A stretch of 11,055 nt of DNA from Chitinivibrionia bacterium (GTDB taxonomy: Bacteria > Krumholzibacteriota > Krumholzibacteriia > WVZY01), in assembly GCA_016208665.1 (NCBI GenBank), contig JACQXT010000181.1, forward strand, positions 1-11,055. The letters are read 5' to 3'. This document shows positions 721-3,446 of this stretch, piece by piece. The notes beneath the pieces were generated by a model. The model saw only the letters and a program-made list of their open reading frames with translations, did no database searches and was not told the origin of the DNA. Both the position numbers and the translations under genes were made by a program. The stretch's first letter is position 1. Every line of letters begins with the position of its first letter.

Positions 721-1566
721 ATGCGACAGATTGCGATCTACGGCAAGGGCGGTATCGGCAAGTCCACGACGACTCAGAACCTCGTCGCGGGGCTCGTTGA
801 AGCGGGCAAGAAGGTAATGATCATCGGCTGCGACCCGAAGGCGGACTCGACGCGGCTAATCCTCCACGCCAAGTCGCAGACCACGGTGATGGATCTGGCG
901 CGCGAGCGCGGGAGCGTCGAGGATCTCCGGCTCGAGGATGTGCTGCAAATAGGCTACCGTGGCATCCGGTGCGCCGAGTCCGGCGGCCCGGAGCCCGGGG
1001 TCGGCTGCGCCGGTCGTGGGGTGATTACAGCCATCAACTTTCTCGAGGAGAATGGGGCCTACGGCAACGACCTGGATTTCATCTTCTACGACGTGCTCGG
1101 AGACGTGGTGTGCGGCGGCTTCGCGATGCCGATCCGCGAGAAGAAGGCCCAGGAGATCTACATCGTGACCTCGGGCGAGATGATGGCGATGTACGCCGCG
1201 AACAACATCTGCAAGGGAATCCTGAAGTACGCGATGAGCGGCGGCGTGCGCCTCGGCGGGCTGATCTGCAACTCGCGCAAGGTGGACAAGGAGCTGGAGC
1301 TGATCGCGGCACTCGCCGAGCGGCTCGGCACCCAGCTGATCCACTTCGTGCCGCGCGACAACGTGGTGCAGCGCGCTGAGCTCAAACGGATGACGGTGAT
1401 CGAGTACGAGCCGGGCGCCGATCAGGCCGAAGAATACCGCCAACTGGCGCGCAAGATCTCGGAGAACCGCAACTTCGTGGTGCCGAAGCCGCTGACGATG
1501 GACGAGCTGGAAGAGCTGCTGATCACGTACGGGTTCATGGACGCGGAGGAGGCGAAGGCGTCATGA
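721..1566 (+). CDS. nifH: Nitrogenase iron protein NifH (dinitrogenase reductase)
   Basis: This 281-residue protein is the homodimeric Fe protein that passes electrons to the MoFe protein with MgATP hydrolysis. The P-loop GKGGIGKST is at residues 8-16, and DPKADSTRL (38-46) is the switch I region. The cysteines binding the single 4Fe-4S cluster between subunits are Cys96 (in GCAGRGV) and Cys131 (in [10 protein letters not shown]). Arg99 is the residue that DraT ADP-ribosylates in organisms with that control. Switch II is [11 protein letters not shown]. The length is slightly short of the usual 285-297 because the C-terminal tail is brief. The start is fixed by its ribosome binding site and by alignment of [11 protein letters not shown]. 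It overlaps nifD by 4 nt (ATGA), implying coupled translation, and is driven by the sigma-54 promoter at 650. Confidence 0.98.
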
Positions 1567-2999
1567 AGACCGCAGAATTCGTTCAGGACCTGCTGAAGCA
1601 GTACCCCGAGAAGACAGCGAGGAAGCGCGCGGGGCACATCGCGGTCAAGGAGACGACGACCGGCGAGTCGGGCGCCCCGAACTGCTCGACCTGCGCGGTG
1701 AAGTCCAACGTCAAGTCGATTCCCGGTGTGATGACCGCCCGCGGCTGCGCGTACGCCGGCTCCAAGGGCGTGGTCTGGGGCCCGATCCGCGACATGGTGC
1801 ACCTCTCGCACGGCCCCGTCGGCTGCGGCTACTACTCGTGGAGCACGCGGCGCAACCTGGCGCAGGGCACGCCCGGCGTCGACAACTTCGTCCCCTTCCA
1901 GTTCACCTCCGACTACCAGGAGCGGGACATCGTCTACGGCGGGGCGCAGCGGCTCGAGATGATCGGCCGCGAGATCCGCGCGCTCTTCCCGCTCGCGAAG
2001 GGGATCTCGGTCCAGTCCGAGTGCCCGATCGGCCTGATCGGCGACGACATCGAGGCCAGCGCGAAGAAGATGCGCGACGAGCTGGGGATCGACGTGGTCC
2101 CGGTGCGCTGCGAGGGCTTCCGCGGCGTCTCGCAGTCGCTCGGCCACCACATCGCCAACGACGCGATCCGGGACCACGTGCTCGGCAAGGGGACGCTCCC
2201 CGACGCCGGCCCCTACGATGTCGCGATCATCGGCGACTACAACATCGGCGGCGACGCCTGGGCGAGCCGGAAGATCATCGAGGAGATGGGGCTGCGCGTG
2301 GTCTCGATGTGGTCCGGCGACGGCCAGCTCGAAACGATGAAGGTCACCCACCTCTCGAAGCTCAACCTGATCCACTGCTATCGTTCGATGAACTACATCG
2401 CGCGGCACATGGAGGAGGCCTACGGCATCCCGTGGATGGAGTACAACTTCTTCGGGCCGACGAAGATCGAGGCCTCGATCCGGGCGATCGCGGCGCGCTT
2501 CGACGACACGATCAAGGCCAACGCCGAGAGGGTCATCGCCAAGCACCGCGCGGAAATGGACGCGGTGATCGCGAAGTACCGCCCGCGCCTTGACGGCAGG
2601 TCGGTGATGCTCTACGTCGGCGGGCTGCGCCCCCGGCACGTGATCGGCGCCTACGAGGATTTGGGGATGCAGATCACCGGCACCGGCTACGAGTTCGGCC
2701 ACGCCGACGACTACCAGCGCACGCTGCCGCTGCTCAAGGACGGCACGGTGATCTACGACGACGCCACAGAGCACGAGATGGAGGAGTTGGTCAAACACCT
2801 CAAGCCCGACCTCGTGGGCGCGGGGATCAAGGAGAAGTACGTCTTCCAGAAGATGGGCGTCCCTTTCCGGCAGATGCACTCCTGGGACTACTCCGGCCCC
2901 TACCACGGGTACGAGGGCTTCCCGATCTTCGCCCGCGACATGGACATGGCGGTCAACTCCCCCACCTGGAAGCTGGTGAAGGACCCCTTCGCCGCGTAG
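1563..2999 (+). CDS. nifD: Nitrogenase molybdenum-iron protein alpha chain NifD
   Basis: A 478-residue protein, full length for NifD. With NifK it forms the alpha2-beta2 dinitrogenase carrying the FeMo-cofactor and sharing the P-cluster. P-cluster ligands are at the standard places: Cys62 ([10 protein letters not shown]), Cys88 (VGCGYYSW) and Cys154 ([11 protein letters not shown]). FeMo-cofactor ligands are Cys272 (HCYRSMNYI) and His439 ([13 protein letters not shown]). Active-site Gln191, His195 and Arg96 are present, as is the GGLRPRH loop at 353-359. These features point to the Mo enzyme rather than VnfD/AnfD. No frameshift or truncation is seen, so the subunit looks functional. Oddly, no nifK follows: the gene ends, a GC hairpin comes 23 nt later, and the next recognisable gene is mqsR. 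The beta chain must be encoded elsewhere or be lost. Confidence 0.98.
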
Positions 3000-3022
3000 G
3001 GCCTGCCACCTGCGCTACCGAA

Positions 3023-3065
3023 CGCCCGCCGCCGGCCGGCCACCCTCCCCGGCCGGAGGCGGGTG
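3023..3065 (+). terminator. GC-rich hairpin directly after nifD
   Basis: Bases 3025-3039 pair with 3049-3063 (CCCGCC with GGCGGG, one G-A mismatch, then CCGGCCGG with CCGGCCGG) around a 9-nt loop, extendable by two pairs. The following bases TGCCTTTGC hold only a short T run. The stem is strong enough to end transcription or to protect the 3' end of a nifHD mRNA. Confidence 0.6.
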
Positions 3066-3081
3066 CCTTTGCAGGCGGTAG

Positions 3082-3207
3082 AAAATGGCCCATCTGCTGC
3101 GGTGCGCTCCTTACCACCTGCGAGCCCTGCGAGTGGGTGGAGCACTGCGGCGCACACCAGTGCGCCTCATTTCTCAGGACTCGCGTGCCTAGCATCTGGA
3201 CCATTTT
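3082..3207. mobile_element. Possible remnant of IS21-type element ends
   Basis: AAAATGGCCCATCTGCT (3082-3098) and the reverse complement of 3191-3207, AAAATGGTCCAGATGCT, agree at 14 of 17 positions, forming terminal inverted repeats around 126 bp. The AAAATGGCCCA core resembles, from memory, the multiple terminal repeats of IS21-family elements. There is no istA or istB inside, so it would be a deletion remnant or a non-autonomous derivative. A nested hairpin GGCGCA (3149-3154) with TGCGCC (3161-3166) sits within it. No target-site duplication was identified. Confidence 0.35.
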
Positions 3208-3229
3208 GAGGTGCCTGCACGTTCCGATT

Positions 3230-3241
3230 TCACTGCAGTGA
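3230..3241. promoter_or_regulatory. 12-bp perfect palindrome upstream of mqsR
   Basis: TCACTGCAGTGA is a perfect dyad about 34 bp upstream of the -35 element of the mqsRA promoter. It could be an operator. It does not match the ACCT/AGGT-type MqsA operator known from E. coli, so its reader is unknown. Confidence 0.3.
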
Positions 3242-3274
3242 GGCAGATCTGCGAGAAGGACAGGTATATCCATA

Positions 3275-3303
3275 TTGACTATATTTATCATTGTGGCTAT
3301 TTT
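3275..3303 (+). promoter_or_regulatory. Sigma-70 promoter of the mqsRA locus
   Basis: TTGACT (3275-3280), a 17-bp AT-rich spacer, and TATTTT (3298-3303) make a good sigma-70 promoter. The A of the mqsR ATG at 3310 is 7 bases after the -10, that is, at the expected transcription start, so the transcript would be leaderless for mqsR. Confidence 0.6.
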
Positions 3304-3309
3304 GTGCCA

Positions 3310-3446
3310 ATGGAGAAGCGGTCTCCGCACTACCGCCTCGCGGAAGTCCAACGGATGGTGGCTGACCCGGAGAGTCGCCCTTTTACGGTAGAGTAACGGC
3401 CTGCGAGGAAGATCGTCCCCCGGTCATTCAGTTCAAAGCCAGGTAA
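3310..3446 (+). pseudogene. mqsR: mqsR toxin, internally deleted and frameshifted
   Basis: MqsR is a RelE-fold mRNA interferase of about 98 residues (GCU-specific in E. coli), neutralised by MqsA. Here ATG 3310 begins MEKRSPHYRLAEVQRMVADP, clearly the MqsR N-terminus (E. coli begins MEKRTPHTRL), continues to ESRPFT and ends at TAA 3394-3396 after 28 residues. In a second frame, just before mqsA, EDRPPVIQFKAR then stops at TAA 3444-3446, resembling the MqsR C-terminal strand (VLIVSFKEK in E. coli). Roughly 60 central residues, including the catalytic core, are missing and the frame changes. The product cannot be an active toxin. The second TAA lies 10 nt before mqsA and forms part of its ribosome binding site, which preserves the usual toxin-antitoxin spacing. 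An assembly collapse would look the same. Confidence 0.75.

Follow-up and report, generated by a model that had tools for sequence, protein, structure and literature searches.

In gene clusters of molybdenum nitrogenase, nifK typically stands directly behind nifD. Among 80 loci from species genomes, taken as the best NifD matches of at least 574, a NifK match begins no more than about 400 bp from nifD in 79 (in two of these the contig breaks off early in nifK), and the remaining locus, L039, stops 12 bp past nifD. This agrees with the statement of an earlier note on the present DNA that nifK directly follows nifD in nearly all diazotrophs. A described interruption of nif genes is found in heterocystous cyanobacteria, in which a nif element, with a site-specific recombinase and an interrupted gene, is excised during development. 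At the level of search listings, no report was found of nifK separated from nifD, and in papers naming both Krumholzibacteriota and nitrogenase each word occurs once per paper. The NifD considered here belongs to a clade of 21 tree rows, supported at 100/99, in which its relatives are 76-97% identical to it (87-97% for the closest ones). Members of this clade are encoded by four of 395 Nitrospirota genomes (G514, G515, G860 and G495) at 81-85% identity (E <= 1e-242), and in all four, nifH, nifD, nifK, nifE and nifN are consecutive; a comparison of nifHDK synteny in close relatives had been proposed earlier. A search of 392 Spirochaetota genomes for NifD at E <= 1e-200 matched G100 alone, itself the source of one of the loci.

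The window analysed here is the whole of an 11,055 bp contig, C147, filed under a metagenome-assembled genome (the bin) of 1.86 Mb in 232 contigs, which is 66% complete with a reported contamination of 0.75%. Proteins named Krumholzibacteria or Latescibacteria share 74-78% identity with RpoC of the bin, and of five same-family genomes two encode an EF-Tu that matches that of the bin at 85-86% along its whole length, the other three yielding fragments or paralogues only. The contig carries the 3' part of nifA, then nifH and nifD, and from there to the far end of the contig it turns into toxin-antitoxin (TA) and defence-type genes; Rfam and tRNA searches of the window gave no match. The features of the nif part are as follows.

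1..387, plus strand: 3' part of nifA, the sigma-54 activator, clipped by the contig start (TIGR01817 the best family, E 3.8e-25, partial)
650..664, plus strand: putative sigma-54 (-24/-12) type promoter, TGGCAC-N5-TTGC, 5' of nifH (sole zero-mismatch match in the window)
721..1566, plus strand: nifH, 281 aa, intact (TIGR01287, 472.6 bits against a cut-off of 394.35; PDB alignment)
1563..2999, plus strand: nifD, 478 aa, intact (TIGR01282, 799.2 bits against a cut-off of 653.55; PDB alignment)
3023..3065, plus strand: GC-rich hairpin of 16 pairs, 23 bp past the nifD stop (folding against shuffles)

The nifH and nifD reading frames overlap by 4 bp, both are open and complete, and no decay is visible in them so far. 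NifD scores above the cut-off of the molybdenum nitrogenase model and the VNFD and ANFD models fall far below their own, identifying a molybdenum-type NifD. Both proteins align nearly full length to solved NifH and NifD chains, upholding the earlier claim that the two genes are intact. That claim extended to every cluster ligand: the conserved Cys/His blocks, which supply the P-cluster, FeMo-cofactor and 4Fe-4S ligands, are indeed present in the alignments. In the bin, the nifH of C147 is the sole NifH match above the family cut-off, with one other match below it. The nifA fragment is 58% and 57% identical to the NifA-like proteins 5' of nifH in loci L182 (G514) and L185. The element at 650-664, also present 5' of nifH in L182-L185, fits the sigma-54 promoter pattern.

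Directly 3' of nifD, C147 has no nifK. Searched by tblastn with a pair of NifK sequences and single NifE and NifN sequences, the window gave no match to NifK or NifN, and the NifE query matched only at nifD itself (31%), in agreement with the earlier observation that nifK is absent from the roughly 8 kb past nifD. The genome-wide search for nifK that had been suggested did not recover it: the PF00148 profile, which spans NifD, NifK, NifE and NifN, has a single match in the 66%-complete bin, the NifD of C147. Because nifK adjoins nifD in 79 of the 80 loci and in all four Nitrospirota genomes of the clade, the nifHD-without-nifK order is not ancestral but either derived or artefactual.

The hairpin past nifD folds at -53.5 kcal/mol, with z -3.1 and none of 200 shuffles as good in one run, and z -3.05 and one of 200 in a second. 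The earlier description of nifD as closed by a GC hairpin thus holds for the hairpin itself; since its inner stem is trailed by just three U, it is no textbook terminator, and a terminator scan picked 3149-3166 and left the hairpin out. In G514 the nifD-nifK spacer (L182:10707-10847) contains two strong hairpins (z -5.5), yet nifK comes next. The corresponding hairpin in L183 is no better than shuffles (z -0.63, 47/200 as good), and the spacer in L184 measures only about 15 bp. Being strong in L182 and shuffle-like in L183, a hairpin after nifD is no rule for the clade, and by itself a spacer hairpin does not signal a cut operon.

The DNA beyond the hairpin carries the following genes.

3310..3396, plus strand: probable 5' remnant of an mqsR toxin gene, 28 codons (weak in-register match to MqsR 3hi2)
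3457..3852, plus strand: mqsA-family antitoxin (PF15731, E 2.4e-46; TIGR03830, 136.6 bits against a cut-off of 61.8)
3923..5119, minus strand: Fic-domain protein (PF02661, E 1.9e-15; PADLOC SoFic, E 5.8e-46)
5594..5926, plus strand: Gp49/HigB-like toxin (PF05973, E 6.3e-11)
5919..6248, plus strand: HTH antitoxin-like (HigA-like) partner (PF01381, E 2.5e-8)
6403..7185, minus strand: GmrSD/DUF262-like gene, frame broken near the 3' end, the continuing frame being separate (PF03235, E 3.7e-24)
7302..7932, minus strand: mad4-like gene, start not fixed (PADLOC mad4, E 1.2e-8)
7931..9172, minus strand: mad3-like AAA ATPase (NF047739, 495.9 bits against a cut-off of 420)
9426..10946, minus strand: hsdS (type I specificity subunit) or mad5-like gene (PF01420, E 2.7e-16; PADLOC Specificity_I, E 1.1e-95, and mad5, E 1.3e-45)

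These Pfam, NCBIfam and PADLOC matches confirm that TA and restriction-type genes follow nifD. A possible IS remnant that had been proposed between the hairpin and these genes is rejected, as the ORFs tested match no transposase or recombinase; 3310-3396 looks instead weakly mqsR-like. The match of this frame to 3hi2 has an E of 0.28, with three designed proteins scoring higher and no Pfam match, and its place directly 5' of mqsA makes a truncated mqsR start probable. The frame change in the GmrSD/DUF262-like gene is either decay or an assembly error. The mad3-like protein exceeds the cut-off of the mad3 ATPase equivalog model for the methylation-associated defence system (MADS), while in PADLOC HEC-01A outscores mad3 on the same gene; of the other mad genes, only mad4-like and hsdS/mad5-like matches occur on the contig, which stops just past hsdS, and on the latter gene plain type I specificity models outscore mad5. 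Several of the accessory genes are decayed and many are oriented against the nif genes. DNA of the island matches 11 of the 79 other genomes of the bin's phylum, always over short stretches, and the HigB-like and HigA-like proteins are 57-66% and 53-66% identical to loci with better matches; on both counts the island lacks a close tie to this phylum. No plasmid DNA match was found for 2990-6260, and the mad3-like protein occurs in six plasmid records at no more than 36% identity. In G514, about 2.1 kb (L182:6114-8215) separate nifA from nifH and contain an opposing 367-aa ORF. By eye this ORF seems to resemble an HTH/ImmA-type protein, which suggests that accessory genes enter nif clusters in G514 too.

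The reading tentatively favoured here is that a real insertion or rearrangement took place after nifD in a diazotroph with a Nitrospirota-type nitrogenase, that the contig was mis-binned, and that nifK lies beyond the contig or elsewhere, or has been lost. In this scenario nifA-nifH-nifD would represent the leading half of a nifHDKEN cluster, broken right after nifD by 8 kb or more of accessory DNA with TA and type I/MADS-like defence genes; the source genome would carry its nifK past this DNA or in another place, or would have lost it; and the contig would have entered a bin with the core genes of another phylum by mis-binning and not by descent. The DNA past nifD fits an inserted island because it consists of TA and defence-type genes. 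Of the earlier proposal that an island was inserted or the cluster rearranged, the non-ancestral order and the TA/defence DNA past nifD are borne out; a nifK elsewhere in the genome was not found.

The bin and its relatives were also compared through a GC-rich repeat of 20 nt, which lies on both sides of the junction.

475..494, plus strand: first copy, near the start of C147
11015..11034, minus strand: second copy, where the match of C147 to contig C62 extends over 40 nt at 93%
L140:6789-6808 (contig C62), minus strand: third copy, inside an open purL frame

With one mismatch allowed, these three copies are the only ones in the bin and none occurs in the 79 other genomes of the phylum; the backwards control pattern has two matches among the 80 genomes. 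Viral contigs, scanned for exact copies, contained none. Nor was a copy found in 417 kb from four Nitrospirota genomes, and the repeat therefore does not tie C147 to Nitrospirota.

The main competitor of a real break is an assembly chimera, in which the nif part was misjoined at about 3000-3450 to the island of another genome and nifK really follows nifD. GC content steps down at the junction, from 65.7% before 3000 to 59.1% after 3400, so that the island matches the bin mean of 58.9%, and the assembly, with 232 contigs for 1.86 Mb, is highly fragmented; together with the near-universal adjacency of nifD and nifK, this composition step counts against a real break. A misjoin mediated by a repeat would need 3000-3460 to recur, and this stretch was rejected as such a repeat, having no copy in 80 of the 232 bin contigs (the bin sample, into which C62 and C179 were chosen since they had matches) or in 24 Nitrospirota stretches. 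The rare 20-nt repeat flanks the junction, and the DNA that is joined there is made up of island-type genes and not of arbitrary core genes. On this balance, a chimera is somewhat unlikely, and set directly against it a real break is clearly, if not overwhelmingly, the more probable. A developmentally excised element of the cyanobacterial type would likewise place accessory DNA within a nif operon. Here nifD is complete and not split, the ORFs tested match no recombinase, and the island extends to the end of the contig, putting any far end outside it, all of which render this idea scarcely credible.

Whether the contig belongs to its bin bears on a further alternative, in which a Krumholzibacteriota-like organism owns C147 and acquired nif, or nifA-H-D alone, horizontally from a Nitrospirota-type donor. 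This would be consistent with the low reported contamination of the bin and with the tetranucleotide correlation of the nif segment, which is ordinary, its r of 0.582 exceeding that of 47 among 88 bin segments; it is the island that stands out, with an r of 0.393 that is lower than in every one of the 18 segments of the same length. Against it, neither a PF00148 match nor a window-type NifD was found in the 79 other genomes of the phylum, the bin has no match to nifK, nifE or nifN, and GC3 of the nif genes (0.88 for nifH and 0.967 for nifD) is far above that of the bin, where 154 ORFs average 0.68 with none as high and, in a larger set of 277 ORFs on 60 sampled contigs, none reaches nifD. The highest of these 277, and the sole one above nifH, is the purL of C62 (0.886), the second contig that bears the repeat. 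This purL (L140 5512-7281) is at most 36% identical to those of other phylum members; in a comparison covering two phyla, the bin's own and Nitrospirota, it is 56-61% identical in six of 13 Nitrospirota genomes and 29-35% in six others, with no purL match in G514, which has the closest NifD (85%). It is foreign to the phylum, and likely a further contaminant or a transferred gene. Within it, the stretch holding the repeat reads unlike the rest of PurL. Taken together, horizontal transfer into the binned organism is unlikely, and C147 is likely mis-binned and foreign to the bin. Counting against mis-binning are the ordinary nif tetranucleotides, the four of 440 three-kb bin stretches with a GC as high as that of the nif segment, and the absence of the repeat from the Nitrospirota sample. 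Three points are inferred here: the presence of the junction in living cells, the foreign origin of the contig and the fate of nifK.

If the junction is real, as in the favoured reading of a break after nifD, the hairpin and the opposing genes would be expected to keep a distant nifK from being cotranscribed with nifD. Given the hairpin and the opposite-strand fic, GmrSD-like, mad4-, mad3- and hsdS-like genes, such a nifK, where it still exists, could not easily share the transcript of the nifH promoter and would have to be driven by a promoter of its own; otherwise nitrogen fixation would be in the process of being lost. Since C147 is one short contig in a bin whose phylum otherwise shows no nitrogenase, the nifK that belongs with it may have stayed out of the bin from the start. 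One candidate partner comes from a NifK subclade (P0266, P0268, P0272 and P0275; support 100/99), which has an excess of Gly, Ala, Arg and Pro (ratio 1.36-1.59, against 0.83-1.14 in others) and a start seven residues longer than in relatives; P0268 is encoded on a contig of 54,964 bp. In the high-GC NifD subclade, formed by the window and P0001-P0006, the same ratio is 1.05-1.22, against 0.87-1.13 in others. This Ala/Arg-rich NifK subclade could partner the high-GC NifD subclade; an alternative is P0019 and P0020 (ratios 1.13 and 1.08). Among the cluster representatives listed, two of the 20 clade NifD rows (P0010 and P0017), and none of the six closest, lie on a contig as long as that of a NifK. 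It is highly doubtful that in the whole high-GC subclade nifK, with P0266, P0268, P0272 and P0275 as candidates, would stand permanently away from nifHD under its own promoter, the MoFe chains being balanced without cotranscription.

If real, the junction would be an uncommon break between two genes with products required in equal amounts, and it could be learned from the subclade whether nitrogenase tolerates uncoupled expression of nifD and nifK or is dying there. Either way, the presence of nifHD on a short contig in a metagenome bin does not count as evidence for nitrogen fixation in the phylum of that bin.

Three known systems come closest to the locus. As in an MqsRA module, an mqsA-family antitoxin comes after an mqsR-like start, but the toxin frame of the window ends after 28 codons. 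As in MADS-like and type I restriction-type defence islands, a mad3-like gene has mad4-like and hsdS/mad5-like neighbours, whereas the remaining MADS genes are absent from C147 and one neighbour gene is frame-broken. The Nitrospirota loci L182-L185 (G514, G515, G860 and G495) resemble the window in nifH (85-87% identical) and nifD (81-84%, both by pairwise tblastn), in the nifH-nifD order, in the sigma-54 element 5' of nifH and, in two of the four, in a NifA-like gene upstream; unlike in the window, their nifD runs straight on to nifK, nifE and nifN.
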